Of a DNA stretch of 64,000 nucleotides, positions 30,852 through 64,000 are shown one piece after another. This DNA comes from Hericium rajendrae (lineage: Eukaryota; Basidiomycota; Agaricomycetes; Russulales; Hericiaceae). Numbering within the stretch: position 1 is the first letter of the stretch; each line of letters begins with the position of its first letter. Below the pieces are notes generated by a model. It was not told the DNA's origin. It did no database searches and worked only from the letters and a program-made list of their open reading frames with translations. The stretch is from contig CM065886.1 of NCBI GenBank assembly GCA_033439255.1, positions 1,860,001-1,924,000 of the forward strand, in the 5' to 3' direction. The position numbers and the translations under genes are program-made.

Positions 30852-33800
30852 CTCCCTCCGGATGAGGCATGTCTGAGCAAAAGAAACAAAAGAGAGTAAG
30901 TGTAGCAAAGCAAGCAGAGACCATAAGAGAAAGAGAGAAAGAAAACATAACACCACTCAGCTCCCCCCGAATCTCTCGACTCTCTAACCTTCAACCAATC
31001 CAAACATCTCCCGGCACTTAACAACGCGATCCCTCGCCAGGGCCTTCGTCAGTGCGTCCGCAGGCATGTCCGCAGTCCCAAGAAACACAGGATGCAACAC
31101 TCCAGAGTCTACCTGGTCCCTCAACCAGTAGAACCGAAGCTGCATGTGCTTCATCCGACCATGGTGCTCCGGGTGCTTCGAAGAGGCAATGGCAGACTGA
31201 TTGTCCATGTGCAGAGTCGAAGGACTGGACAGGACATCATAGCCAAACTCCGAAAGCAGGTTGCGCATCCAGCAGACCTCCTGACCAGCATCGAAGGCAG
31301 CAATGTACTCAGCCTCGGTAGTAGAGGTGGCAACAATTGTCTGAAGCCTCGAACGCCAGCTGACAGCACCAGTACCGATGCGGAGGACATAACCAGATGT
31401 GGAACGACCATTGTCCGGGTTGCCTGCATGATCAGCATCAGAATAGGCAGAGAAGAGCTCAGGCGAAGTCCCAGAGGGACTCGGACCATAAGCAAGCTTC
31501 AAGTCGACTGTGCCCTTGAGATACTTGAGCAAGTGCTGAACGGCCTTCCAATGTGCCATGCCAGGATTGGAGGTGAAGCGGCAGAGGACCCCGACAGCAT
31601 AAGCAATGTCTGGGCGCGTGCCACCTGCGAGATAGAGGAGAGAACCAACTGCACTGATGTAGGGGATGCTCTCCATCTCCTCGCGCTCCTGCGGGGTCTG
31701 CGGACTCATGGCCTTCGAAAGCTGCAATCCAGGCTCCATCGGTGTCGAGAGAGGCTTGCAATCGTTGTGATTGTAGCGTTCGAGCATATCGAGGATGTAC
31801 TGGCGCTGGGAGAGAAAGAGACGACGAGTAGAGCGATCCCGGGTCACTGCAACACCGAGAAGAAATGAAGTCGCACCCAAATCCCGAAGCTTGAAGTGAG
31901 AGGCTAACTCCTCCAAGAGCTCGTCAAGAAGCTTCTCCGAGTTGGATGCCATCGTCCCATCGTCCACAAAGACAGGCACTATAACTCGCACATCACCCTT
32001 CTGGAAAACATAGATGCTGTTGTCCGAGTGAATGCAGGTGAAGCCCATCTTGTGCACGAGAATCTTCGTCAACTTCTTCTTCCACAACAGCGCGGCCTGC
32101 TTTAACCCATAGATAGACTTCATCAGCGCAGACACATCACCTGGATCGCCCTCTACAAACCCCTCTGGCTGCTTCATATAGACCTCTGCATCGAGATCAC
32201 CATTGATGAAGGCATGGGAGATGTCGAAAGAGCGAAGGGAGAGGTCCTCGATGGCTGCAAGGGCAAGGACAGTCCGAATAGAGGCAAACTTGCATGTGGG
32301 AGCGAAGGTCTCGTTGAAATCCATGCCTGGCCGCTGGCTAAAACCCCTTGGCCACCAATCGAGCCTTGTATCGCTCGATAGAGCCGTCCGGGTTCCGCTT
32401 GATCTTGAAGACCCACCGAGACCCAATCGCAGTGCGACCAGGTGGAAGCGGACCTACAGACCAAGTGCCGTTGCGCTTGTGGGCCTCCATCTCCTCCTGA
32501 CATGCGAGAAGCCAGTCCTGTGCATCGGGGCGCTGCATTGCCTCGCGAAAGGACATGGGCTCGGAATCAGCAGAAGAGAGCATCGCACCTTCGGAGAGAA
32601 GATCAAGCTCATCAGGGCTGTCTCTCTCCTGTTCCTCGGGCTCTGAAGCATCAGCTGAAGTCTGCTCGACGTCCGAGCCAGATCCAGATGACGACACTGC
32701 AGGTGTAGGCTCCCGAGCTTCATGAATGGAGGGCAGAGGAGCTTGGACCTTCGCAGAAGACTTGGCCGCGGACTTGATCTTGGACCCAGAGGGCTTCGGA
32801 TCGGTCTTGGGAGTCTTCCACCACTCGCCAGGTTGCTTGCGCTCTCGAGTTCCTCGACGCTCTGGCAAGGCAGGCATGGTCCCTCGAGTCACAGAATGAC
32901 CCCAGCGAGCAGGCTGAACAGCAGGGGCTGCAGCAGGTGGTAGAGCAGCAGGGGCTGCGGGCGGAGGAGAGAGTGCCGGTTCAACGTTGTGCTCCTGTTC
33001 TTCAGCAACAGGCTGTCTTCTGACTGACGGCTGAGAAGAGGGTGCGTCACCATCCCCCTCCAGAACCGGTACAATCATCGGAGCAGAATTCTGAGCATCG
33101 GGCGAGAAAGCAAGCAAACGCGAAGGAGAAGAGGGTGTAGACGTCGATGGGGAGTTCCTAGAACGACTAGAGCAGTCACGCTCATCGAAAGTGGCACACT
33201 CACTGATTACAGACTTGCGAGTCTACGGATTATAAAACTTCCAACCCTTGTACCCCTCCGGATACCCGATAAAGATGCACTTCTCCATATGGGGATCCAG
33301 GGACCTCCTCTTGTCCTTCTGCACGTGCACATAGGCTGCACATCCTCACACTCGCAGATGCGAGACATCAGGCTTTGCGCCATGCCAGAGCTGATAGGGA
33401 GTGGCATTCTCGATGGCAGAGGTACCCACACGATTCCAAACATGCACATAAGCTGCCAGACACTCACCTCAGAATGTCTTCGGCAGCCCAGACTCCGCCA
33501 GCATCGTGGTAACCCCCTCATCCATCGTACGGTTCGCACACTCAGCTACTCCATTTTGCTGAGGCCTGTTCCGCACGGTATGTTGACGAGTGATGCCTGC
33601 AGCAGTGGTAAAAGCAATGAACTCGTTCGACATGTACTCACCCCCCTTATCATCTCGCAAGCCCTTGATCTGCGAGTCAAAGTGATTCTCAGCATAAGCT
33701 TTGAATGCCTTGAATGCAGCAAAGGCCCCATCCTTCGTGCGAAGCAGATAGATGGTGCGAAAGTGGGAGTAGTCGTCAATGAAGCTGATCCAGTGTAACC

Positions 33801-35668
33801 TCCGATGGACTGAACAACGAGAGGGCCATGAAGATCTGTGTGAATAAGCTGCAAAGGCGAGTCCGCACGAGATAGAGAGCTCGGAAAGGGATCTGCATGC
33901 ATCTTGCCTGCGAGACAAGCGACACAGATCGGATCCGGTGTTGCAGACGACTGGAGATCGAGGCCAGTAACGAGGTCTTCACGAATGAGGCGTTGGACAC
34001 CAGCAATGTGATGGTGACAGAGTCGACGATGCCAGAGAGACATATCGAGAGGAAGAGTCGATGCAAGGCATGCAAAGGCGATCGAGTGGATAGTATGACC
34101 CTCGAGGAAGGCAGAGTTCGAGCCGTTGACCTTAGCAGTGAAGAACAGCTCACCAGCGCGCTCGAATCGCATACAGTCGCTTTTGATCACAACAGTGAAG
34201 CCCTTGGCTCGAGTGAGGAAGAGGACTGAGAGGAGATTATTGCGGAGATCAGGGACATGAAGGACTCGAGTAAAGATGACTGGCTGCTGCTCCGTTCCTC
34301 CGACCACTGGCACAAACTGAACCGAGCCTACTCCTGCAGCATAGACGACCTTGTTGTCTGCGAGACGAACGGGAACAACGTGCGGAGTGTAGTCGACGAA
34401 CCAATGGCGATGGGAGGTCATATGAGACGTGGCCCCAGTGTCTGCATTCCAGGAATCATCAGCAACGAAGGAGGGTGAGGCAGAGGCTGCGAGAGAGAGT
34501 GAGAGTGAAGGACTTGCACTTCCAGCAAACTCTCGAACGACGGAGGCAGAATGAGCAACCGCGGGAGCTGCAAAGGTAGATCCTGATGCCATTGCCTTCT
34601 GCTTCTCGTCCCAGGCCTTCCGATGACACTGTTCTTCGCTATGACCACCTCTCTTGCAGTATGTGCACGTCACACGCGGGCCTGAGGGCGTACCAGAGGG
34701 CTTGCCACCGGTCCGCGGAGGCTTGGAGAAAGTCCGAAGTGCAGAGGCACCATCCTTGCCTGAAACATCGCCGGATCGATGCATGCGATTGATCTCCTCG
34801 TTGCGGAACGCTGCTTGAAGCGACGAACGATCCATCTTCTCGAGTAGGAGCAAGGAAGAGGAGAAGGAGGCGTAGTCGGAGGGCAGAGAACGGATCATGG
34901 TCATGCAAACAAGCTCCTCATCGAGCTTGGTGATGTCGAAGGTGTCCGGGCGCAGGTTCTGAACGCGGAGAATGGCCTCATCGATGCGGTTCATCAGAGA
35001 TGCGAGAGACTCCTCCTCACCCTTGCGGATGGAGAAGAGATCGTCCTAGGCATTGAATCGAGCACCGGGACGCTGCGAGAGGTGAACAGAACGAAGGGTG
35101 GTCCAGATAAGCTTAGCATCAGACTTGCAAGCCTGGATATGGATGCGCTGGTCCGGGGCAATAGCAAGAAACAGCGCACCAAGAGCCTTATCGTGCTTCT
35201 CCAACCAATCGGCAACCTTATCCGTCTCCTTCACATCCGGCTTGGGCTCAGTACCACTCACAATACCCCATAGACCCCTCAACCTCAAGACCGCGGTGAT
35301 CTCCTCACTCCACTGAACATAGTTCGAGGACGAAAGCCTCGAAATTTGCATGAGGTGAGAAAATGGGTTCGACATATCTGAGTCGGACCGGGGAAGACCA
35401 GCAAGGCACTATAGTGTAGCGGGCTTGATCGTCGAAGGTAGAAGTCGATAAAATGAAGGGTCGACGCTTTTTGGGAGTGGAGGGGATAGAGATATAAGAG
35501 ATAGATGCAGAGTAACTCAACGATGTTAAGACCCGATGGCTCAGCGGATCGGCACGAAAACTTGTGGGCAACGAAGGTACGCAGAGGCGACGTCGTTGGC
35601 AAAAGATCGGCGAGATCGGACAAGTGGATGGGCAGATATCGATGATGTGAAAACTTCGCTAGAGTGCA

Positions 35669-48611: not shown

Positions 48612-49100
48612 GGACTTACCTCAAGCTCATTTGAATAATGATGATTGGTTAATTTTCAACTAAGCAGATATGCTAGCATAGCTCAGAAGGCATTGTCTAA
48701 AAGTAGCTGTCAATGTGATTTTGAAAAGGTATAATACACCCTGGTTGGTGCTAAATTTAGAGACCTATGAATAAATTAGTCTGCCAGCTCAGCAAGTGAG
48801 ATACATACAAGATGACCAAGGTGAGCCATCGGGTTGAGTACCTCCTGGTTCCAAACCGTCAACCACTCAGCGGATGACTTGGAGATACCCATCGAGCCTT
48901 GCAGCCAACATGACAAGCATGCAGGATGTAAAGCTCATGAGGAAGCAAGACTTTACTGCTCTCACACTTCACCACCGAGTTTTGATTATGTAATCAGTCT
49001 TCAACACATAGATTTATAGGCATTTCTGTACTTATAATATACTATAAGAGTAGACATTGTACTAATGCTCATTGCTCATTGATTATATTATTTTTAGTAT
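48612..49100 (+). repeat. Array tail segment, matches 19171-19650
   Basis: The same tail as at 19.2 kb, ending TTTTTAGTATT. The two copies define the right-hand border of the larger repeat family. Confidence 0.75.
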
Positions 49101-49282
49101 TCCTGGATCCGATAGGACCAGGTCTTGTCAGTAACCAGGATTTCCTTATTCAGTAGGCAGCCAAAATTTCCTTTTCAAGCGACACAAATAGAACGCCCCT
49201 AAGTTCACCATGCCCCTAACTTCGTGCTACTTGCGGTCGCGGGAGCAAGTCCTGACTCAGTCAGACTTGACAACCTACCACC

Positions 49283-50041
49283 ATGGCTGTCCGCACCTCG
49301 TTCGTTGAAGACGTTGCTGACGACGACGACCACTGTACCCTTCCATGTCTGCCAAGAGACAGCTCAGTCTTAATTGACACTTCCCCGACTTGTCCTGCGC
49401 TTGGCCGCAGAGGTGTCAGACCAGAACCTAGCACGGGACAGCGACAGAGAGGGAAACATGATGAAGAACCCATTGCGCCTGCTGGCTGACCCGTTAGTCC
49501 ACTGCATAGTGGGCGGAAACGGCCGGCGGGGGATGTCGACGACGAACCTCCATCTAGTAAATGTTCGAGAATGGGAGCAATACCTTCGTTCTCTGGTAAG
49601 TCCTTGTGCACGGTGTTTCTCAATTTGCTAACTGCTTTTCACCCCTCTTCTTTCCCTCCTGGCGTTCTGTTGTCCGTTGCTCGTTGTTCGCCGTTCGTTG
49701 GTCGTTGTGTATTGCCTTTCGTCCGTCGTCACGTTCGTTGATTTCAGTTGACCCGTCCATTCCGCTTACCGATGACCGTACACCGTATACACTTGTTCGT
49801 GATCAGATTGTTGATGAGCATTCGTCTTTCGTGCCAAGTGGGAAATTTGTTCGAACTTCGTTCCTGACGCAGTGGTATTCGTTTGTGGGAGTTCAGCTCG
49901 AGTCAGATCCTCGACAATCAGAGCTTCTTGCTGTGTCTTCTCCTTCCCTAGAATTGTTGCTGTCATCATATGAGGGATGGACACGCCCGAACTTGCGGGC
50001 TGTGGCTGACCGGCATGGACTTCATTTCACTGGACGGACCA
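49283..50041 (+). pseudogene. Helitron protein N-terminal part, SAP-like
   Basis: After an intron (donor about 49598, acceptor at 49747) the frame reads DRTPYTLVRDQIVDEHSSFV, then LRAVADRHGLHFTGRTT. The last piece resembles a SAP-type DNA-binding helix pair. It is cut at 50041 by the first inserted element and resumes at 50625 with KQTILDTLNGNHTC in phase once the insertion and one CA are discounted. A frame change follows between about 50650 and 50730 before the Rep part. The true start (49283 or another ATG) is uncertain. Confidence 0.5.
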
Positions 50042-50622
50042 CATCAGGAAGGTTGACAACTTTCTGATTGACCTGACAATTTCTAACCCTACTGACAGCT
50101 TCTGATTGACCTGATCCACCTGAAAGCAATCTTGAGAAGCAAATATCTGATCAGACTTTTACATTCAAGAAAAGACATTTATTGTCAGATATATAAGTTT
50201 TTAATCTCTAACTAATAGATATATCAAAATCTTTGATATCTAAAATTTTTGAAAATCTGAGAGTGTCTGATTTCAAATCTGGAGGTCAAATATCAGTCAG
50301 ATGGATCAGACAGTGTCAGACACCATCAGATGCTCTCAGACAGTTGCAGATAATTTTCAGATATTTGACCTCCAGATTTGAAAAAATTCTCAGGTCAGAC
50401 ACTCTCAGATTTAGAAAATTTCAGATATCAGAAATTTTGTTATATCTATTAGTTAGAGATTACAAACTTATATATCTAACAATAAATGTCTTTACTTAAA
50501 TGTAAAAGTTTGATCAGATATTTGCCTGTTAAGATTGCTTTCAGGTGGATCAGGTCAATCAGGAGCTGTCAGTAGGGTTAGAAATTGTCAAGTCAATCAG
50601 AAAGTTGTCAACCTTCCTGATG
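50042..50622. mobile_element. CATCAG-ended element, 581 bp, TSD CA
   Basis: Inverted arms of about 190 bp start CATCAGGAAGGTTGACAACT. CA is duplicated at 50040-50041 and 50623-50624. Nearly identical to 53445-54025 and of the same length. Confidence 0.9.
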
Positions 50623-50651
50623 CACCAAACAGACCATTCTGGATACTCTGA

Positions 50652-53444
50652 ATGGTAACCACACCTGTCGGTTGGGTTGTAAGGGTTTATTATACATGTT
50701 TCGGGCATGTACAAACGAGCGTTAGGCCGTCCCGCCCCAGGCGTACCATTCGAACTGCAGCGCCGCAGTTTGGCCCGAGCTCTAATCATAATACAATACG
50801 TCAGCCAATTATCGCAGAAGCTTCGTTTCCAACCGCCCACACAGCGCAGACATCGGAACGAGAAGAGTCATTTCCTCAGTTTTGTGATGAGCAGTGTCGG
50901 TTTGAAATTATACGGGAAGTGCAAGAGCATTTTCGAGACGAGCATTGGGTTATGAAACCGTGCGCGGTGTGTGGACAGAGCAAGTTCAACAGAGATATCA
51001 GTACGATACCTTGCTCAGAAGTGCCTTTGCACCTATTGCGCAACGATAGCATTCTGAACCGAATTTGGCCTGATGACTACAACTTTGAGGCGTATGACCG
51101 TGCATTTCTGGAAAGCCAAGCTTTGGCAGACCCGAACGTGCCAACGAGCATGAGCATGTGCTCGTCGTGTGCTTCGCATTTAGATCGTGAAGAACAGCCG
51201 CCCGATGCAATTGCCAATTTTCAGTACTACGCTCATCATAGGTTACCCTTGGCGGTTCATAATGCATTTCGCAACGCTAGTATTCACAATTTACAATTAG
51301 CATCTGCCTGCCGCGCGACCCAAATATCTTTTGTTTATTCTGCTGAGCAGGTGGCAGGAACGGCGCGGCAAAAATTTTCGCGTGGAAATGTGGCGATCAT
51401 CCCTCAAGATGTGAGTGATGTCCAGAGAGTTTTGCCTCCATGTCCTGATGAAGGCGAGTTTATGATTTGTGTTATTTTTGTTGGTGGAGTCAAAAACCCT
51501 TCAACAGAAGACTTAAAGAAATTCAACCCCGTATTGGCAAATAAGAACCGAGTCGACACCATGCTGCAGTTTTTGACCACGAATAACGAATTCTACAGAA
51601 CGCATGGGATTACATATAGCAGGGAAAATCTTGACCGGCTTTGCCCGGATGCTGACTTTCAGGAAGGCACTGGAATCAGCAGGGCCATAGAAATATGCCA
51701 CATGCCGCAAGCCAACAGAGCTGCTGATGCAGTCAACAGTGGCTATGCGGAACGGGACAGCGATGTAGACGTACCCGATGATGACATCCTCATGGAAGTG
51801 GTTGGATTTGCGAACGCTGCTCAAGGTGGTGTGAGTCATTCGAGCATGAAAGCCCAGGCTTGGGATTGGTGTGTAAACCAACGCCGAGCTTACTGCAAAA
51901 TCGGGTCGGGGACGGAGCTTTTTCCAGACAGAGACCACAGGATGCTTACCTTTTTATTTCCGAACTTGGATCCTTGGGGAATAGGCAGATTTAACCACCC
52001 ACTACGGCAAGGCAAACAGTGTATCTCATTCGAACGTCAGTTGCGGAACTTGCTGTTGCGTTCTGACTCTCCGTTTTCAAAGGATCCCAACTTCGCCTAT
52101 ATAGGTTGGAACATCGTCCAGAAGTTGGAAGCCAGCCGCTCTATGAGTTTTCGTATACGTGATAATCAGTACCAGCCCATGTGTGATGAGTTGACCGCTT
52201 CCGCAGACTTGCTAGAGGTCATGAAAGACAAGTGGGAGGCAAATCCGGCAGCACAGACGACAACGTCGGCAGAAAAGAAAGCTATGGCACTACTGAACAA
52301 ACTGAGAGTGATCTCGAAAGAGTTGAGGGGATCGAATGGACAGCGGTTGAAGATGCAAAATGAAATTCGGGCGCTTTTGAAAGTACATGGCTGCCCGTCT
52401 CTGTTCGTAACGATTAATCCCGCTGATATTCAACATAAGATGGTACATATTTTAGCCGGAGGAGATCCTGATACCTTCCGAGAGTTGTCTGCATTTCAAC
52501 GAGCTAAGCAGGTGGCTGATAATCCGAAAGCCGCTGCATTGTTCTTCGACAATATGATCCAAGCCTTTGTTAAGCTCATTTTACGACACGGTGATAGTCG
52601 TCCCGGTCTGTTCGGCCACTGTCGGGCATACTACGGCACGGTGGAAGCACAAGGGCGAGGCACCCTACATTGCCATATGCTGATATGGCTGCGCGGAAGC
52701 ATGTCCCCGCAAACATTGAGGAATAAGATGCGCGACGATAGTACTTTTTGGCAGACAATGTTCTTGTGGGTAGAATCGATCATTAAGTGTGAATTGCCTG
52801 GGATGACCAGGGTGATGAGTGTGCGATCTGGAGAACAAATTCGAAAACCAGACAGAGGCGAACGGAACGATGTACGTACCTCAGATGCTCCGTTCCTACC
52901 AGACGAACTGGATGAAGAGTCCCTTGTGCTATTTCGCAAGAACTTTGAGGAGTTTGTGAAAGAACTAGCTATCGAATGCAACTGGCACGACCACCGGGAC
53001 ACCTGTTGGAAACATTTGAAACCCGGTCAGCCTCGAGACGATGCACACTGCCGGATGTGCATGGATGGGAAAACCCGTGCTCTTACTGAGATGGACCCAG
53101 ACACGTTCGCATTAAAATTACGGCGTTTGCATCCGTGGATCAATAACTATAATGATCTCATCATGTTCTTATTGAAGTGCAATATGGACGTCAAATTTAT
53201 CGGTTCGGGTGAAGCTGCAAAGGCCTTAGTTTACTACGTTACTGATTATATTACTAAAGCGTCTTTGCCGACTCACTTGGGACTAGCTGCACTGTGCTAT
53301 GCGATCAGGAGTAATGCTGCAAAGTTTGCGAACGATCATGACACGACAGCGACTACTGTTCATCGCAGTCTGATGACAAAGGTTGTGAATGCGATGATGG
53401 CTCGACAAGAGATATCTCACCAACAAGTCATGAGTTTTCTGCTG
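50652..53444 (+). pseudogene. Helitron Rep domain
   Basis: Long open frame with a Cys/His-rich start (DEQCRFEII, CAVCGQSKF, SMCSSCASHL), then the Helitron-like N domain, SLFVTINPADIQH, and the HUH motif GRGTLHCHMLIW at about 52654-52690. The paired catalytic tyrosines are in YYVTDYITK (about 53233-53259). Rep nicks and joins single-stranded DNA during rolling-circle transposition. The frame ends inside the second 581-bp element. It would be intact if that element were absent: element plus duplication is 583 bases, exactly the frame shift seen between the Rep and helicase parts. Confidence 0.9.
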
Positions 53445-54025
53445 CATCAGGAAGGTTGACAACTTTCTGATTGACCTGACAATTTCTAACCCTACTGACA
53501 GCTTCTGATTCACCTGATCCACCTGAAAGCAATCTTGAGAAGCAAATATCTGATCAGACTTTTACATTCAAGAAAAGACATTTATTGTCAGATATATAAG
53601 TTTTTAATCTCTAACTAATAGATATATCAAAATCTTTGATATCTGAAATTTTTGAAAATCTGAGAGTGCCTGATTTCAAATCTGGAGGTCAAATATCAGT
53701 CAGATGGATCAGACAGTGTCAGACACCATCAGATGCTCTCAGACAGTTGCAGATAATTTTCAGATATTTGACCTCCAGATTTGAAAAAATTCTCAGGTCA
53801 GACACTCTCAGATTTAGAAAATTTCAGATATCAGAGATTTTGTTATATCTATTAGTTAGAGATTACAAACTTATATATCTGACAATAAATGTCTTTACTT
53901 AAATGTAAAAGTTTGATCAGATATTTGCCTGTTAAGATTGCTTTCAGGTGGATCAGGTCAATCAGGAGCTGTCAGTAGGGTTAGAAATTATCAGGTCAAT
54001 CAGAAAGTTGTCAACCTTCCTGATG
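53445..54025. mobile_element. CATCAG-ended element, 581 bp, TSD TG
   Basis: Second copy in the same Helitron gene. TG is duplicated at 53443-53444 and 54026-54027, and it lies in the same orientation as the first. It interrupts MSFLL-GGGDRYC, a conserved stretch in Helitron proteins. Confidence 0.92.
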
Positions 54026-54027
54026 TG

Positions 54028-56937
54028 GGAGGGGGCGACCGTTACTGTAACCATACTTTCCGCTCGTTGTACTGGGGGGAACTTGACCGTTATTTGAGAA
54101 AACAGGAGGCCGAACAACGAAACGAATCTGAAATAATCGAAACGGAAACCCCTGAGGACGACTTTTATGCCATCGAGGAGGCTATTGAGCTGGGAACGAG
54201 AATCAATACAACTCGTAACTTCGCCTTCACTGCGAACCTGACGGAAAATGAAATTGAAGATGACAGCAACGACGCTGTGAATGACGACGAGACACCGAAT
54301 GGCAATGGAAGGGGAGAAGACCAGGGTGATGATGACGACCCGCAAATGGTGTCTCTCAGCACTGCAAAGGGCGTTTTGACTGTTTCGAGTTTGTTATATG
54401 ACTATCGTTTGCGAAGTTCTGATGTAAATTTCGAATGTCTCTCTGTCTGGCAATATGTTTCGTGGGTTGAGAAAATCACAAAGGCGGCAAAAGACCGTCG
54501 TCAACAGGCAACTCACCGGCTGCGTCCAAATCGAGCAGTGAAAAGGGTTCCGTTCCTCAATGATGACCACCCGCAATTTGATAGTCATATATGTCGTATG
54601 CGGGTAATTCCCGTTGTCCCTGTATATCTAGGTCCAGCGATTCCGCGCTGTGATATAGGAGGTGAAGATTATGAGCGATACTGCCGTTGCATGTTGACGT
54701 TGTTTAAACCCTGGAGATCAGTCACTGATCTGAAAGCACCAGACGAAACATGGCCCGAAGCATTTGAGAGGACAACCTTCAACGATGAGGTGACTCAAGT
54801 GATAGCAAATATCCACGTCGAAAGAGAGTGTCGTGACGCGCGTGATGCGGAGGTTGCAGCACGCCGTGAGAGTGGAGCGAGTGGATTGCTTGCTGGCGAT
54901 GGCGACCTGTATGGTCAACAGGCAGGAATTTCCGACGAGACTGTCGACGAGATGATTCCGTCCGTTGATCTAAACGCTATTCTTCTGCCTGGAAATGACG
55001 TTGACAGTAATCTCCTGGAATCATCCGTGGACGACTGAGAAGACAGAGCAGATGCACATGTGACAGAAATGCTGAAGTGCCTTGCAAATGTCGGATTACT
55101 ACAGGAGAATGTCCAAGGAGCAGCTGAAACAGAAAACCTTCAGAATGCCAATGAGAAATACAGCTTGTATGATGCTGGCGCCCAGCAGAAACGGATGGCG
55201 TACCTGAAAAAGCATAAACGTCCAAAGATGCGAGTCCCGCGCGTTGACGACAGTGCTGGTTTCTCCCCCCCAAATCTCTGTATTCCTCCATCTGCTTCGT
55301 TAGCGAGGCTCGGAGAACCGAGTGGCAATCAACAATTGTCAGTGCCGGCGGACGAATGGTCCCATGCTGAACCAGTGACCAAGGAAAGCCTTCTGCGCGA
55401 TGTTCTCCGAGATATGAATGTCAATAATAACGATGAACAGAAAATGGCCGTACAAATAGTCGCGGAGCATTACCACACGAATGATCCATCTCAGCTTCTT
55501 ATGTATGTCGCAGGTATAGGTGGTACTGGAAAGAGCCACGTCATAAAGGCAATTGTCGAGTTCTTCAGGCGATGTGACGAAACTGATAACATATTGCTCA
55601 GCGCGCCAACAGGGATAGCAGCCGTCCTTATCGGTGGATATACATTACATTCATTGTGTTTCCTGCCCAAATCGAAAAGACCCGTGAAAGCTGAAGAATT
55701 AGTGGACATCTGGAAGGACGTACAATACTTAGTCATCGATGAGATTTCTATGGTGTCTGCAACTATGTTATCAGATATCTCCTCCCGTCTCAGTGATACA
55801 AAATCGTGGGACCCGAGGACTCACAACAAACCGTTCGGAGGCGTTAACGTGATATTCATGGGCGATTTTGGCCAATTGAAACCTGTAAGAGCGACATCAT
55901 TACTCTCGCATACTTTGCATAGCAAGGTAGATAAGAACAAAGGACAATTCACAAAAGGCCAATCGGCTCTCCACGGAATACACCTTTGGAGGCAGGTGAA
56001 AACTGTCATTGAGCTGAAGAAAAACTGGCATCAGAAGGAAGACCCACTGTATGCTGATTTGGTTACTCGCATACGGGTTGGCAAAGGTACTAGTACTCCG
56101 TCCGCTGAAACCCCCTCGGATTATGACATCCTCTCCCGCCAAATCTTGAACGTTCTTGAATCGCAGGACCCGTCTGCAGTGGACGAATTCCGTGATGCCC
56201 CCGTCATCGTGAAAGAAAAGAAGGTCAGGGACGCGATCAATCTCTGAGTGGCGAAAAAGAAAGCCAAAGAAGCGGGTCACGACCTCAAACTATATGTCTC
56301 AAGGGACAGACAACACCGCAAAGCTTTAACGGGTCGAGTCGTGGAAAGGGTACGTGCAATGAAATCAAATATTACTGACGACCTTCCGATGTTTGTCGGC
56401 ATGAATGTGATGGTGACAGATAATGCGGACGTCATCCACGGCATTGCCAACGGCGCTGAAGGGATCGTTGAACATATCACATCCGACATAGATGAAGAAG
56501 GCAATGAATATGCGACATGCGCCTATGTGAACGTCCCCGATTCGGGTTTTCAGATTGATGGTTTGCAAAAAGACATTGTTCCGATTTTCCCATTGACGGC
56601 CAGTTTCCAATACACAACGCCTGATAAAGTTGAGCATAGTATTTCCAGAACTCAGCTACCGCTCTTGTCTGCATATTCCTATGTCGACTATAAAAGTCAG
56701 GGTCGATCTCTAACGAGAGCCATCGTTGATCTATCCGGTTCACCTAGTCTGCAAAGTGTCTATGTCATGTTGTCTAGGGTGAAGACATTGAAAGGACTTG
56801 CTATTCTGCGATGGTTCCCGCCTGCAAAAATTTGTACTGGCCTCCACCACGAGTTCCGAGAAGAATTTGCGCATCTGGACAACCTGTCCAGGCTAACAAG
56901 ACTCGACTTTCTCGCAAGTCATAAACAATCAACATAG
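54028..56937 (+). pseudogene. Helitron helicase domain, PIF1-type
   Basis: Continues from the Rep part with GGGDRYCNHTFRSLYW, an acidic linker and a superfamily 1 PIF1-like helicase: Walker A GIGGTGKS (about 55516), Walker B LVIDEISMV (about 55730), GDFGQLKPV (about 55862), and the C-terminal YVDYKSQGRSLTRAIVDLSG (about 56683). PIF1-type helicases unwind DNA 5' to 3'. The frame is single from 54028 to 56937 apart from TGA at 55036-55038 and 56245-56247. At both, CGA (Arg) would suit the context, so each may be a methyl-C deamination. Confidence 0.9.
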
Positions 56938-56939
56938 AT

Positions 56940-57570
56940 GGCTCCTGACGGCTTTTGTCATACGGGTATAGTTCGTCAGGGAAAACATTCCATGGCTGAT
57001 AACAGATCGCACCTATGCGCTCATGTGTGGAGAAAACAATGTCCAGGATCTCTGCCACCTGAACGGTACGGGATCATCAGGGAGGATGAGATTGTGTAAC
57101 GTCAAAAGTGTCCGCTCTCGCGCAAATGCAACTGATGTTGATCGACAAAAAGAATGCGACGACAGATGGGCATCAGACAAACTGCCAGTTGATCATAGAC
57201 AGTGGCACCACAGTGATCGAGGGATAAGGTGGATGTTGCCAGAGCGCCTCTCGATTCTAAGAATGCGGACCATCAATCCTTCTTTAGCGCCAGCTTATCC
57301 AATTACGTGAAAACAGACAGACAAAGGAATTGAAAGGTGAACACCAGCCTACAAAGGTTGTCCGCTACACGACGATAATTGGATACATTGGACGAACAGT
57401 TTTTATTATTATTATGGCGTTTTTAACAAACAGCGGAAGAAATAATATACATCACAGGCAAATAGGCGACAGTCACCACAGAACATAGAATAACAAACTC
57501 AAGCAGAATATGACGAGGACGTGTCTGAATCATCACATACAATACTGGAGGGACCGGCCACATGCGGACC
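56940..57570. other. Intergenic, probably Helitron 3' flank
   Basis: No supported gene. The 3' terminus of the Helitron should lie here. GTGTCCGCTCTCG near 57107 and a run of TTATTATTATT near 57405 were noted, but no convincing terminal hairpin was found. Confidence 0.35.
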
Positions 57571-57575
57571 ACGGG

Positions 57576-58565
57576 TCAGGGAGGACGGAGCAGTATGCAT
57601 TCTCTAAATACTTCAGTTAGTTCGGTGCAATGTCCACAAGATGAATAACGCACCATCTTCTGCTCATTTGAAGGACAAAGACGAATGACATGGTCGAAGG
57701 AGAAATGCACGACGGTCGCAGGAACTGAGTCGCGGCGACGAAAGTTGGCAATGTCCAATTTGACTCCAACATCGACAAGATCCCCTTGCGCGAGTTGCAA
57801 GTGACTCAAAGGTCCAACACGTCCATCAAACTTGCGATCAAGAATAGAGGGCCTAGACACAACGCGCCATCGGTTCAACATCTCGTGTGTGGTCGTCAGG
57901 CCTGACGGATCATCCACGAGAGTCAGAACCGATCGCTCGGTCATTCCCGTATGCACCTGCACGAAAATTAGAAGTATTTTCAATCAGATGAACATGATAC
58001 ACACCTTCGTGAATATCCTTCGCTGAAGAAACAAAGTGTCCGGGTCAAAATCATTGGAACCCCCGACAGCCGGGCCAGCGCACAGCGACCTCAATACCAT
58101 GTCTTTCACATTATCCAAGGCCGTGCGCTGCGTGTCAAATTGTTCGGCGAATGCCCCCGGCAACAGTTCAAGGTGCGAAATGGCCCGTGGAGCGTTCATG
58201 CTGGAACTTTACACTGATCAGGACTAAAGCGGGTGACTGAAATATGTAACATACCCATCCCAGTTGCCCGTGGCTGACAAGTTGTGTGCGCCAAGGACCC
58301 CGATGATACGGAAAGAAGCCTCGTAAAGGAGATTTCCATCATGAGGCTGAGGCGTGTAAAAAAGGGAGAATTGACGAGTAGGATCGGTTGAACGCGGGTT
58401 GCTACCAACAAACGCCCACAGCGTGAGTGCGTCAAAAGTGACAGACACCCTCGAACGGGGATCCATATCCTGCGCATCGCAGGCGTCCTGCAACAAATGG
58501 CACACATCGCCAGGGAAGGTGTCACGGACGAGGCGAGAATTGTCGAGAGTGAGCACAAAGGACAT
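57576..58565 (-). CDS. Orphan protein with G-D-x-V strand segment, three exons
   Basis: Exon 1 (58565 to about 58243) starts MSFVLTLDNSRLVRDTFPGD and ends SATGNWD. Exon 2 (about 58200-57980) reads MNAPRAISHLELLPGAFAEQ to RRIFTK. Exon 3 ends at 57576 and holds HLQLAQGDLVDVGVKLDIAN and VVHFSFDHVIRL. Introns have clean GT-AG ends and phases agree; total about 318 residues. A TATA box (TATATA, 58621-58627) lies about 55 bases upstream. I do not recognise the family. The G-D-x-V-x-V segment followed by a charged loop and a hydrophobic strand recurs in the genes at 60.4, 61.1 and 36.8 kb. Confidence 0.65.
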
Positions 58566-58769
58566 GATGCAGAGATGAGTGGCTGGATAAGATGTTCTTT
58601 CTCTGCAATTGTGCGGGCCTTATATATCATCAGACAAACGCCAGACTGCCTTGCTGGCTGTGCACCTTCTCCAACGAACTCTGCGACAAAATCTGACTTA
58701 CCGGTCTCAGCGCGAACGGTAAAACAATTCTCTACACACATCCAACACCCGTGAAACCTCCTCATGGAA

Positions 58770-59440
58770 AAATGAGACGCGACTCGGCGCCGATATGCAA
58801 AATCTGAAACGATGCATCAGCCTCGGGGAAGAATGGACAAACCGAGCAACTCTCTTTCACCTTTCCTTCCGTGACTTGTTTTTAGTCCCGCGACACAACA
58901 CCTAGTCCGCGACTGTCTTGATCTTGTTACTCTTGAGCCGGCAACAATCCTCCACCGCCGACAATGAAATATATTCCCGACAAAGCATATCCGAGACTGT
59001 CATCTAACGATAGGATGGTGAAGTTGAATATCTTCCGCACCTCCGACTGAATCTCCCGTCCCCGTCGTAAAACATGCCTGTACGACAAACGGACGTGACT
59101 CCCAATCCGACACAGTGATCCATTCACAAATCAGTTTGATCCATGCTCCAGCGCATCTGCATCGCAGAAGCGAGACTGCCGCTTACTACCGACATCCTAA
59201 GACCCAAAGTTGTTCCGACACGAGATTCGCCGGATGATCCATTCCTGTCAAAGTCTCTGACCAGCAACGGAGAACTGACACCAAAATAAGGCCGACAATG
59301 CGGAAACCGTTGCTCTGCTAAGTGCGCCGTATAAATACAGGCCAGTCCTCCACGAAATAGTCAGTTCTGACGAGCTCAAGACAGCGTTACTACCAGTACT
59401 TCACTTCTGTAACTCGGTCGAGTCCATCCCTCTTCTGCAA
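58770..59440. promoter_or_regulatory. Intergenic region with TATA box for the gene at 59443
   Basis: TATAAATA at 59330-59337 lies 106 bases before the ATG at 59443. Otherwise nothing was recognised. Confidence 0.5.
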
Positions 59441-59442
59441 CC

Positions 59443-60678
59443 ATGGCTGGAAAACGAAAGCTCGAATCAATTGTAGGCAGCGGCGTTTCTTCCAGATCTA
59501 CGTCGAAGAAAGCTGCGTGAGTTTAAACTTTTCCTTCGCACCAGCTCTGCACTTACTCATTCTGCTCCAGTAACGAGAACAACACGGTTCAAGATGCAGG
59601 TGGAGGCGACGGCCTCCCGATTTCGACCGCAGACCTCATCGATGATGAGGCGAAGGAATCCTCGGCAACCGCGTCCGGTGGAGAAGAGCAGGGCAAGGAG
59701 GGTGTTGATGATGGACATCCGTCAGTACATGAGCACGTGCTTGACGAAGAACCGCCACGAAACCCATCAACGTAAGTTAAGCACTTTTCCTTTCTACCAA
59801 CCGTTCTAACATTTTGACACTGCAGTGCCAATGCATTTGCAACTCACCGACGCTCATCTGCGAAAGAATTGACAGAGGAAGAGTTGGACAGAATATTGGT
59901 TGATCAACCCTTTTACAGGGCAGACCAGATATCGTACGTCACCCTTCACTTTCTGAAAAATAATGTACGCTAACAAGCTCAGTCGCTTCCATGACTTCTT
60001 ATACAAATCTGACCCAGCCCATAACATTTTCCCCCTCCTTAACACTCCAAACTCATTGTGCTGGGAGAAAACCAAGCCTCGTGGTGCTGTCGCTAGCAAC
60101 AACATGCACGTTCGAGGTGCTTCGTCTCCCACCATCATTTGGATATTGGGGACTGTGCGCAAGACTTGGTTTTTCAACTCAAACAGTGATCCGGTTTCTC
60201 GCCCCTCGGTCACCGTCAAGCCCATTTTGCCCGAGATGTTGAAAGCTTCTTCACGTTTACTCGCCAATGCACCTGCTTACCCGACGGCTGGTTCCGATGG
60301 AGAGGAAGTTGACATCCGTGCGTCTACCTTCTCCACTGCCCGTGTCCGAGGTGATCGCGCTCCTCAGGTGCGTAAGTCGTTCTATTCCACATGCACATGT
60401 CTAACTGCTCTCAGGCTGTTGAATTCACGAGTGTGTTTGACGCTACCAGCCTCTATCATGCCCACATGAAACGCATCGAGGCCACTCAAATTAGTTCAGG
60501 GGATGTTGTCCTGTTAGAGGCTTCAGTTTCGCGCTACAGAGATAGTGGAGCACGTCAGTCATCGGGCCCTACCGTTTGGAAGAAGACCTTCAACATGAAG
60601 CGTGTTTGCCTCATTTCGCGAACGGATTGGCAGCCCGAAGAAGATGAAGAAGATTTGTCTTTTTCCGGTACTATCTGA
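59443..60678 (+). CDS. Orphan protein, basic-acidic N-terminus, G-D-V-V segment
   Basis: Five or six exons: MAGKRKLESIVGSGVSS, then an acidic Gly/Glu-rich stretch (59575-59770), SAKELTEEELDRILVD, RFHDFLYKSDPAHNIFPLLN, SPTIIWILGTVRKTWFFNSN, and the last exon with SSGDVVLLEASVSRYR and FNMKRVCLISRTDW, ending in an acidic tail at 60678. Donors GTGAGT (59518), GTAAGT (59772) and GTACGT (59933) and the matching CAG acceptors are clear. The lysine/arginine start could be a nuclear signal. Function unknown; the G-D-x-V segment links it to the neighbouring genes. All exons are open, so it is probably a live gene. Confidence 0.68.
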
Positions 60679-60679
60679 C

Positions 60680-60980
60680 TCCGTCTTGTTTTTTTTTCCG
60701 CATGCCTTGTTCATACGATTTCAGACTCCGTAGCATGTCTTTTCCATATTCTATTATTGTTGTAAAAATAAACATCTCTGTTCGTCCACTGTCCATTTCT
60801 TGTGAACAATTTGTCTGCCTTCCGAGCTGTTCAGTTTAATTTCCACTGCCGGCACTTCCACGCACACATTGGACTTAGTTAACAGCGGAAAATCTGAGCA
60901 GAAAGCAGAACGAGTCTATTGCGAGACAATGAAAGTATGTATTTCTTTGATGCGGCTTTGTGGACAAGTATCCCCATCGT
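60680..60980. terminator. Convergent 3' intergenic region
   Basis: Lies between two genes that converge. TTTTTTTTTCC at 60689 and GTAAAAATAAACATC near 60764 look like transcript-end sequences. No gene. Confidence 0.35.
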
Positions 60981-60983
60981 ACT

Positions 60984-61494
60984 CTACGAATACCAATTGT
61001 CAACATAGTAGATGTAAGTGCGTACACGAAGCATAAAATCTGAGCCTGGAATGGGGTATGCTTCACTACGGCCACGGATAGCGATCTCCACATCTGGGCA
61101 TTTCGACAACGAGCGCTTCGGCGAATTGGAAGACGCCACGATCACCTTCTCAAACCCGAACCGCCGCATAACTGAAACGTTCACAAATACATCTCCCTCG
61201 ACCAAAGCCCATGCCGGACGGCTCTCGTGGGCCGTAGGGAAAGCATGGAAGGTGCGATCACCGTCGACAGAGCTTGTACACTGGTAGGTGGCCATTTCCG
61301 TCGGCTTAGCGACGGCTACCAAAAAACACTAACCCAGAAGGGATGGTTCAGAACCAGGCACGGCAATGTCTCGGCAAATCGCAGCGCACCTGAGCGTCGT
61401 GGTTCAGCGCAACAACCGTTTCTTCATCTACAACGTGAGAGATGCACTCGAACTTCGGGGGAAGCACAGCGGCTAGACGTTTAAGAGCAGACAT
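60984..61494 (-). CDS. Small orphan protein with G-D-V-x-V segment, two exons
   Basis: Exon 1 (61494-61390) encodes MSALKRLAAVLPPKFECISH and ends ALNHDAQ. After a 61-base intron, exon 2 (61328-60984) reads CFLVAVAKPTEMATYQCTSS, then VEGDVFVNVSVMRRFGFEKV and CPDVEIAIRGRSEAYPI. About 149 residues; further 3' exons are possible. Predicted as mostly beta strand, with the same G-D-x-V-x-V-x-V pattern as its neighbours. Family unknown. Confidence 0.55.
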
Positions 61495-61706
61495 TGCAGG
61501 GAGGGCAATAACGAATTCAAGAAAAGGGGTAAGAGATGCAGGTGAAGCTTCAGGTGCGGGCCTTCATTCTTTCTCTTACACAACCAGAGAGCGTATCACA
61601 GTCCAGACCACCTGTCAGCTTCTGAATGCCACCAGTCGCTGCAACTTCTGAACACCACCAGTAACTGTCAGCTATGCGCGATTGACCACGGCCGAACACT
61701 ACTTGC

Positions 61707-61928
61707 TCAACTCACGTTTAGCTGGCCATAATGCAATCGCCGAACCACAGCATCCAAAACAGTTTCACTGTCATACCGAACATAAAGAAATCCTACCTCC
61801 GGCATGAGACAGATGCCGATTGTCAGCTCTGCCGCGTGAAACATACATCGACAGCTTCCGCGAATATTGAAAGGCTCAGAACATGCAAAACCCCACTGCA
61901 CCGACCGCCCGTCGACAATTCCCACCAA
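61707..61928 (-). CDS. Possible small orphan gene
   Basis: A 73-residue open frame (MVGIVDGRSVQWGFACSEPF...) with fairly ordinary composition and a Val/Leu-rich end. No splice partners or family seen; it could be a chance frame. Confidence 0.25.
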   Translation of the reverse strand: MVGIVDGRSVQWGFACSEPFNIRGSCRCMFHAAELTIGICLMPEVGFLYVRYDSETVLDAVVRRLHYGQLNVS

Positions 61929-61942
61929 AAAAACTCATGACT

Positions 61943-62400
61943 TCCATAAAGGTACCGTCCTGCAACGCACGTCTGGTCAACACTAATTGATCGCAGAAAT
62001 GCAACTTACGCGTGATGCGCGTCTGCTCGAGCGTGCACCAGCAAGTTATCTACACTGACGCGACTCATCATGATGTCCACGGAGGAACTACCATTCCTTC
62101 CCTCGACTTTTGGTTCACCACCCCTCGAGCGGTTCAGCGCGACATCGTCTATGCTCAAGACCAAGCGCGCCGGACTATTCCTTTCGTCATCTACCACTGC
62201 GAGAATCGAGACGCCTTGATTCCCGTCCCCCCCCATTGAAAAGAATTTGAATACCGTATGGCGAGGAGAAATACTGGTCTATCGCCGAGCACTCCACTCC
62301 GACAAACTCATCAACCTACGCGTCGGGGAAGAGAAACTCGTATGGAAGGCAATTGAGAGGTTCGTTTTTCTACTGAGACCCTACCGCAGCTAATGCCATC
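61943..62400 (+). pseudogene. Orphan gene with frame break at a C run
   Basis: Exon 1 MTSIK (61943-61957), intron to GCAG at 61996, then QQVIYTDATHHDVHGGTTIP and VIYHCENRDALIPVPP. At a run of eight C near 62228 the frame stops, while the next frame continues sensibly with IEKNLNTVWRGEILVYRRAL and GEEKLVWKAIER. The WRGEILV-R pattern is common in agaricomycete orphan proteins. A one-base change in the C run, or a sequencing error there, would explain the break. Confidence 0.45.
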
Positions 62401-62599
62401 AAGCAGCCTACTCCGCACCCTCGCCTGAATACGTCGGTTCTAAGTCTTCCCCCCAAAAACGAGAAACTGCGTAGTAGACAGAAATCTTATAAAAAAATAT
62501 ATCACATGCTGTTCATCAACTTGTTCTGTGACGTGAGCGCTTGAACGATAGCACACCAGTGTGACTGTGACGATTCAACACTCTTTCTTCAACCGCTCT

Positions 62600-63685
62600 A
62601 TGGATTTGACACCCTCCTTACTCAACAATGGTGCACGCCGCTTCGTTCTTTTCCCCATAATCGACGATAAGGTCCGTACTGCACAAATACTGTCCTGACT
62701 TTCAATAATGTCAAACAGGTCTGGCGCCTGTACAAAACCGCACAAACCAACTTCTGCACCGCCGAATCCATCGTAACAGAAAGGGACGACCTACACCGCC
62801 TGTCTTCTGCAATCCTCCAAGGTCTTGCACACTTCTCTATTGCCAACGGACCTCAATCAGCTACGTGCAACGTGTTGCAGGCAATGACATCGAAATTCGA
62901 GTTAGCTGAAGCGAGGTGTATGCTGGGATTTCACGCCATGTCCGCCAACATACACGTCGAGACTGCTTGCAACCTGACGGAAGCGATCTGCCCCAACGTC
63001 GACATAAGATCCATTGTCTTCTCCGAGGCTACTTTGTCTCCACACACTATCAGGCTACATAACTGGATGACGACCGCCGACAACGAGAACGAGACAGCGT
63101 TCTTGCTAGCCTCAAAAATGCTCATCTACTACACAATACTGTTCTCCGGTCTCACGTTCATCACCACCAACGCTTCGCGGCCAACACTACGACTCTGGGC
63201 CGACAATTACAATACGCACATCTCGACACTGTCCAACTTCCTCAAGCATGTCATAGAAACTATACCCGACCCATCTAGTCAAAGCGCGCTACCAGCTCTG
63301 CTAGCGGAAGCGGTCTCCATGGAATTAGCTTTTGTGAAAGGTCAGACTATGTCCAACGCTACATATATGGACAGTACCTAACGAATACGCAGATACATAC
63401 AAACCGACAATTTGTAAGGCACATATGCGGTCCATTCTATCCAACATAAATGACCTTGCGCACAACCTCGGCTCAACATTGCGCTTATCGTCTCAGAATA
63501 TTGTACGGCCGCGGCGTGCACATTTGCATCCACCCAAAAATCACGCCAACCGCGCGGACGTTTCAGTTCAGACGGATAGACCCTACCCACTGATTTTTGA
63601 CCGCTCTGAGTCCTTGTATGTAAATCCCTTGCCTTCACATCCCACAAGACTGACTCTCTCCAGTACGACTACAGATACCTTCTGA
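62600..63685 (+). CDS. Ribonucleotide reductase small-subunit (R2) homologue, catalytically dead
   Basis: Exon 1 (62600-62671) encodes MDLTPSLLNNGARRFVLFPI plus IDDK. After a 47-base intron exon 2 (from 62719) reads VWRLYKTAQTNFCTAESI, ILQGLAHFSIANG, AEARCMLGFHAMSANIHVE and LWADNYNTHISTLSNFLKHV. This aligns along its length with class I R2 proteins ([47 protein letters not shown]). R2 makes the di-iron tyrosyl radical needed for dNTP synthesis. Here all four carboxylate iron ligands and the radical tyrosine are replaced (D to V, E to A, E to S, E to Y, Y to A) while both histidines remain. A later segment reads MRSILSNINDLAHNLG, and after another intron (63617-63661) the protein ends SFTTTDTF, like the R1-docking tail of R2 (FTLDADF). 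Between exon 2 and that segment the frame needs a 19-base gap at 63374-63392. Possibly an Rnr4-like partner or regulator. Confidence 0.8.
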
Positions 63686-63701
63686 GATTTCACGCAACAG
63701 A

Positions 63702-64000
63702 ATGGTAAAACACATCTTATCTCTATCGTACAATACTCACCCAAATTTTCAGGACACCTTATGGAACGCGGTTGTCATCCACCCCAACTACCAGAACGAA
63801 TCACCTCTCTCGTCTAAGACGACATTCAACTCGTACTTTGACAGCGCAGCATTGTCTCTCGATTCCACTAGCTCTATCCCCACGTCTGAGATAGCGTCAT
63901 TACTCTGCGCTGGACCCTGTGTCAACATCGCCAACATCTATGACAGATCTCCGACGGTCTTCGACTGGTACTACTCCATTTTCGCCACGCACCCCGACCT
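63702..64000 (+). CDS. 5' part of an unidentified gene, runs off window
   Basis: The ATG at 63702 is followed directly by a GTAAAA donor; after TTTTCAG at 63752 the frame reads DTLWNAVVIHPNYQNESPLS, FNSYFDSAALSLDS and PTVFDWYYSIFATHPD, open to the window edge. No family recognised. It is tightly spaced behind the R2 homologue (about 16 bases), on the same strand. Confidence 0.5.
   Translation, partial: MVKHILSLSYNTHPNFQDTLWNAVVIHPNYQNESPLSSKTTFNSYFDSAALSLDSTSSIPTSEIASLLCAGPCVNIANIYDRSPTVFDWYYSIFATHPD

Follow-up and report, generated by a model that had tools for sequence, protein, structure and literature searches.

A predicted ribonucleotide reductase R2 paralogue stripped of its radical machinery, downstream of a broken Helitron in Hericium rajendrae

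A gene near the end of a 64,000-nucleotide stretch of the Hericium rajendrae genome (the window) is predicted to encode a relative of the ribonucleotide reductase subunit R2 in which nearly the whole radical machinery has been replaced. We tentatively read it as a catalytically dead paralogue of eukaryotic-type class Ia R2 whose gene is intact and whose product has a non-catalytic role in binding or modulation. Why would such a gene be of interest? Ribonucleotide reductase sets the DNA precursor supply. Dead R2 subunits are already known from yeast and apicomplexans, and an intact gene with these losses would be a natural test of the non-chemical roles of the R2 scaffold. The protein is possibly a protein inhibitor of ribonucleotide reductase.

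Gene Model

The gene lies at 62600-63685 on the plus strand, 112 bp downstream of a TATA-like box (62488..62496), and in the spliced model comprises four exons and three GT-AG introns encoding 312 amino acids. Exon 1 (62600..62671) encodes residues 1-24 and is separated by a 47 bp intron (62672..62718) from exon 2 (62719..63340), which supplies residues 25-231 plus one base and holds the bulk of the R2-like domain. A second intron of 52 bp (63341..63392) precedes exon 3 (63393..63615), which encodes a divergent C-terminal portion. The third intron, of 48 bp in the model used (63616..63663), leads to exon 4 (63664..63685), which encodes the last part of the sequence SFTTTDTF before the stop; an alternative acceptor at 63674 gives a different end. 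A further ATG follows the stop by 16 bases and may open another gene (63702-64000) that runs out of the window; its visible part has no Pfam match.

R2 Homology and Fold

The 312-residue protein matches Pfam family PF00268 (Ribonuc_red_sm) with 56.2 bits and an E-value of 4.6e-15, against a cut-off of 33.6 bits. R2s account for 14 of the 15 PDB sequences among the phmmer matches listed at E<=1, the best being human p53R2 (3.2e-13). A search of NCBIfam gave no match. The signal is concentrated at the N-terminus: residues 5-125 are 31% identical to 32 viral R2s in a profile comparison, and the profile Z-score is 22.4 for residues 1-120 against 0.2 for residues 121-312 (60 shuffles each). Residues 124-312 alone find no R2 in Pfam or PDB.

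Is the protein a fragment of R2 fused to unrelated sequence? Residues 1-252 were scanned beside nine copies in which residues 121-252 had been shuffled. The unshuffled sequence scored 56.0 bits and covered profile positions 1-247, while all nine shuffled copies fell to 37.7-40.2 bits, a loss of about 16-18, with the match ending by residue 127. This anchored control restores the second-half signal and rules out a chimera. Since residues past 120 are continuous with the first half, they count as R2-homologous, and the homology of the predicted protein continues thinly to about residue 240. An earlier sequence-only reading, which had the gene aligning across most of R2, is upheld by the Pfam score and by this control, and the predicted protein is of R2 descent across about residues 14-240.

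Both fold-defining motifs named in that reading, RRFVLFPI (in exon 1) and EARC..GF, are present in the protein. The second, EARCMLGF, is encoded at 62908..62931 on the plus strand and compares with EARCFYGF in human p53R2. RRF and EARC are common to the R2-like protein and p53R2 and occur in none of 31 viral R2s. When the 207 residues of exon 2 were modeled with 31 viral R2 rows in the input, the resulting model was modest, with ten helices and a mean pLDDT of 65.7, and the best 50 of its 553 Foldseek matches (E<=10) were all ribonucleotide reductase entries, with top values of E 4.0e-4 and TM 0.80 by query length. Modeled without R2 rows, exon 2 was again all helical at a confidence of 45.3, and R2 was found in 0 of 24 Foldseek matches. 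The expected structural match to R2 thus appears with R2 rows in the input and disappears without them; this support for the fold is partly circular because the model was shaped by those rows.

Iron Site, Radical Tyrosine, and Relay

The six iron ligands of R2 are an Asp, three Glu, and two His, with identities as given in PMC3824934. Four MAFFT modes agreed on every ligand call (4/4), and the phmmer alignment to p53R2 gave the same calls. Only one ligand of the six is kept, H103 (62953..62955; all codons here are on the plus strand). V43 (62773..62775) stands in place of the Asp ligand, A100 (62944..62946) in place of the first Glu, and A107 (62965..62967) in place of the radical tyrosine. 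In a weaker region of the alignment, M158 (63118..63120) replaces the third acidic ligand, a Glu, and the segment from H191 to L195 (63217..63231) has His for the relay Asp, I192 for the fourth acidic ligand, also a Glu, and L195 for the second ligand His. The nearest Asp or Glu to residues 158 and 192 lies more than five residues away when the protein is read by eye, so both losses hold under register shifts of that size.

The proposal that all four acidic ligands and the radical tyrosine had been replaced was therefore borne out at V43, A100, M158, I192, and A107, in every MAFFT mode and in phmmer. The companion proposal that both ligand histidines persist was half right: H103 is in register, but the column of the second holds L195 in each of the four MAFFT alignments and in the phmmer one, and H191 could serve as that histidine only if the alignment moved four residues. 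At the columns that we take to be the Trp, Asp, and Tyr of the relay, MAFFT places C37, H191, and, for the tail Tyr, Arg or Ala. The predicted protein is without the iron site, the radical tyrosine, and the relay residues, and an R2 of this kind should not drive R1.

C-Terminal Tail

The sequence-only reading also saw an R1-docking-like C-terminus in SFTTTDTF. This tail arises only with the intron 3 acceptor ending at 63663. Our intron-scoring script gave its top rank to the acceptor at 63674, with which the protein has 316 amino acids and ends in LYLLRFHATEW. The two acceptors share a donor and a CTGAC branch-like motif, which lies 10 or 21 bases before the AG. Because the tail needs one acceptor and the script favors another that yields no such tail, the sequence is at most suggestive of docking.

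FTTTDTF agrees with the published R2 heptapeptide FTLDADF at three of seven positions, namely both end Phe residues and Thr2, and has lost Asp4 and Asp6. The window contains 4049 heptapeptides that precede a stop; 23 of them have three matches to FTLDADF and only one has the pattern F-T-----F. Measured against SFTLDADF, whose Ser we presume to belong to the motif, the tail agrees at four of eight positions, a score equaled by 3 of 3816 random octapeptides and reached by 2 of the 23 possible splice ends, the model used included. The F-T-----F ending is rare by chance; the claim of a docking-like tail is weakened by its dependence on one acceptor and by the loss of both acidic positions.

The last seven residues of R2 bind R1 and, as a free peptide, inhibit ribonucleotide reductase, so docking alone can inhibit (PMC9221315). 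Published R1 complexes have a hydrophobic subsite and a positively charged one (PMC9221315); with both aspartates lost, docking would be weaker or changed. R1 docking through the predicted tail may accordingly be weak or absent.

A Kept Gene or a Decaying Copy?

The spliced frame has no stop and no frameshift. When the coding sequence was subjected to simulated neutral substitution down to 24-38% identity, it acquired a mean of 8.3-10.5 stops and none of 400 trials at either identity level stayed open, a result that gives no date of loss because constrained divergence followed by recent death would look identical. Third-position GC is 183/313 compared to 45.5% in the flank and introns (p = 2.8e-6), and the in-frame codon log-odds are about 5 SD higher than in 500 shuffles. 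Frame, introns, and codon bias of the predicted gene are intact, and the TATA-like box is a further feature that does not suggest decay.

Conserved R2 positions are retained unevenly along the protein. Of the columns with 90% or higher conservation across 32 viral R2s, 32 of 78 are kept in residues 1-120, 12 of 75 in residues 121-232, and 10 of 42 in residues 233-312. The first two segments differ with a Fisher p of 7e-4, a contrast that misalignment in the second half would exaggerate. Such unevenness is unlike uniform decay, which would favor neither half. The CpG observed/expected ratio is 1.15 in each of the final two kilobases of the window. The open frame, introns, codon bias, retention, and CpG favor a gene that was probably kept rather than decayed, and the absence of stops, the codon bias, and the uneven retention lend indirect support to selection on it.

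Relatives and Origin

Where did the gene come from? A scan of viral contigs for close relatives found no match to the R2-like protein, and a scan of prokaryote genomes returned two pattern matches, neither of which was confirmed. Among 50,697 phage records, five matched the protein with identities of 25-30%, and three of the five carry a ribonucleotide reductase annotation. With no close relative from the scans of viral contigs and prokaryote genomes, a recent viral or prokaryotic origin is unsupported. Among the literature matches listed (titles and the starts of abstracts), there was no fungal Helitron with R2 and no basidiomycete pseudo-R2.

Genomic Setting

Upstream of the gene lie the pieces of a Helitron RepHel at 50652..56934 on the plus strand, recognized by the Pfam domains Helitron_like_N and PIF1. 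The element is broken: its frame has TGA codons at 55036-55038 and 56245-56247, and one copy of a repeat interrupts it at about 53440-54028. The R2-like gene starts 5.7 kb downstream of the RepHel end on the same strand. No gene model between the two has a Pfam family above the cut-off, and five smaller models of this orphan region had no Pfam match. The description of the gene as adjacent to a Helitron and in the company of orphan genes therefore holds.

A well-formed neighbor is a multi-exon orphan gene at 59443..60678 on the plus strand, encoding 343 amino acids in the model used, whereas the model that the script ranked highest has 327. Its protein is acidic toward the N-terminus. A TATA-like box, TATAAATA, sits 113 bp ahead of its ATG. 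Its only Pfam hit, DUF7002, has an E-value of 0.21 and falls under the cut-off; PDB gave none at E<=5, and the one pattern match of the 343-residue protein in viral contigs was not confirmed.

The Helitron, the orphans, and the R2-like gene share a normal CpG value. The observed/expected ratio is at least 0.89 in 13 of the 15 one-kilobase windows from 49001 to 64000, the remaining two carrying repeat insertions. In positions 1-49000 it is below 0.89 in 46 of 49 windows and at most 0.6 in 29 of 49, with a lowest value of 0.03. Long frames resembling a Copia-type polyprotein occupy 30987-35045 on the minus strand, where the ratio is 0.78. A search of the whole window for further copies of the gene block found, besides the block itself, one self-inverted match within it. 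A repeat of about 600 bp is present in two copies in and before RepHel (50042-50627 and 53440-54028), 99% identical over 300 nt, its inverted arms being some 213 nt long; ends resembling it were seen by eye near 2030 and 6890.

Discussion

What would a dead R2 do? On our preferred reading, the gene would be expressed and its product would fold as an R2-like helical protein, pairing with the host's active R2 and/or docking on R1, the latter by way of the F-T-----F tail where that splice form is made. It would then be a beta-prime subunit without catalytic activity. On R1, a radical-free R2-like protein would lower ribonucleotide reductase activity; in a pair with active R2, it could be of help, by analogy with Saccharomyces Rnr4. 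A binding, modulating role is probably the likeliest, and it may be that of a helper or of an inhibitor.

The same losses could also belong to a diverged R2 paralogue that died recently or is dying and has no function today. The catalytic residues are gone, the surroundings are rich in repeats, and the RepHel alongside is broken, with two in-frame stops in about 1,900 open codons; by our estimate, the lack of any stop in 312 codons would be nothing unusual for a gene of RepHel's age. Against this stand the open frame, the GT-AG introns, the codon bias, the uneven retention, and the normal CpG, and we consider a dying copy unlikely. Reuse of the R2 fold outside ribonucleotide reductase, with the tail a remnant or a product of chance, would account for residues 121-312 having no R2 signal of their own and for a tail that is acceptor-dependent and has neither acidic position. 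It fits poorly with the N-terminal half of R2 being the best-kept stretch and with the rarity of the F-T-----F ending (1/4049), and it too is unlikely.

A gene downstream of a broken Helitron and among orphan genes also makes mobile cargo a live rival: the adjacent element could have captured the gene and its orphan neighbors, which would serve it, for example through dNTP supply. The gene is on the same strand as RepHel, downstream of it, and within the same 15-kb stretch of normal CpG, which starts near 49 kb and continues to the end of the window. The cap genes of Pleurotus HELPO1 Helitrons, one to four in number, of obscure origin, and in some cases highly expressed, occupy such a position 3' of RepHel (PMC4289320); the cap-gene domains named there do not include R2. 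A plus-strand search from 56.9 to 64.0 kb for a CTRRT-type 3' end preceded by a stem of at least 6 found none. Helitron ends of a second type, CTTG, are known in HELPO2. The 5.7 kb gap also counts against cargo, as does codon choice: C-ending codons (two-fold plus Ile) make up 62/90 in the R2-like gene versus 245/524 in RepHel (p = 1.4e-4), although the difference from the 343-residue neighbor (43/77, p = 0.11) is not significant. We regard cargo as unlikely. Still far less probable is a mobile-element block whose dead R2 competes for host R1, so that the Helitron or its cargo would control host dNTP supply. In Neurospora, R1 (un-24) itself acts in nonself recognition (PMC3618301), and such a decoy could therefore also act in nuclear or genomic conflict.

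The preferred reading of a dead but intact R2 paralogue has parallels. Saccharomyces Rnr4 is likewise an R2 paralogue missing residues required for the di-iron centre (PMC3824934, PMC9431586), and Rnr4 and PfR4 are reported partners within ribonucleotide reductase complexes (PMC3824934). In the Hericium protein, all acidic ligands and the relay are lost. It scores 35.5 bits in phmmer against Rnr4, 39.7 against Rnr2, and 52.9 against human p53R2; orthology with Rnr4 is unsupported by these values, which as bit scores without a tree are a weak test. The earlier comparison with Rnr4 holds good in kind, for the gene is open and spliceable and its catalytic residues are replaced. Apicomplexan R2e2 and PfR4 are also non-canonical R2s, PfR4 with reported binding to R1 and R2; in R2e2 the radical Tyr is described in Plasmodium members only and the C-terminal relay Tyr as missing (PMC3824934). 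In contrast to the Hericium protein, R2e2 retains most functional residues, and the tail of Plasmodium R2e2 is conserved and acidic, with the sequence QIxFDEDF or QIxLDEDF (PMC3824934); the Hericium protein has neither feature. The Hericium gene appears to be a more stripped variant of the dead R2s represented by Rnr4 and some R2e2.

Class Ie R2s, the metal-free VPK and QSK variants, also have their metal-binding glutamates replaced, but they are of bacterial class Ib descent, unlike the R2-like protein, and act through a tyrosine modified to DOPA (PMC11846895). This class is ruled out here, as the tyrosine needed for DOPA is A107. Cryptococcus Rnr22 is, like the Hericium protein, an extra basidiomycete R2 paralogue; unlike it, Rnr22 retains the conserved amino acids, and its overexpression can replace Rnr21 (PMC9431586).
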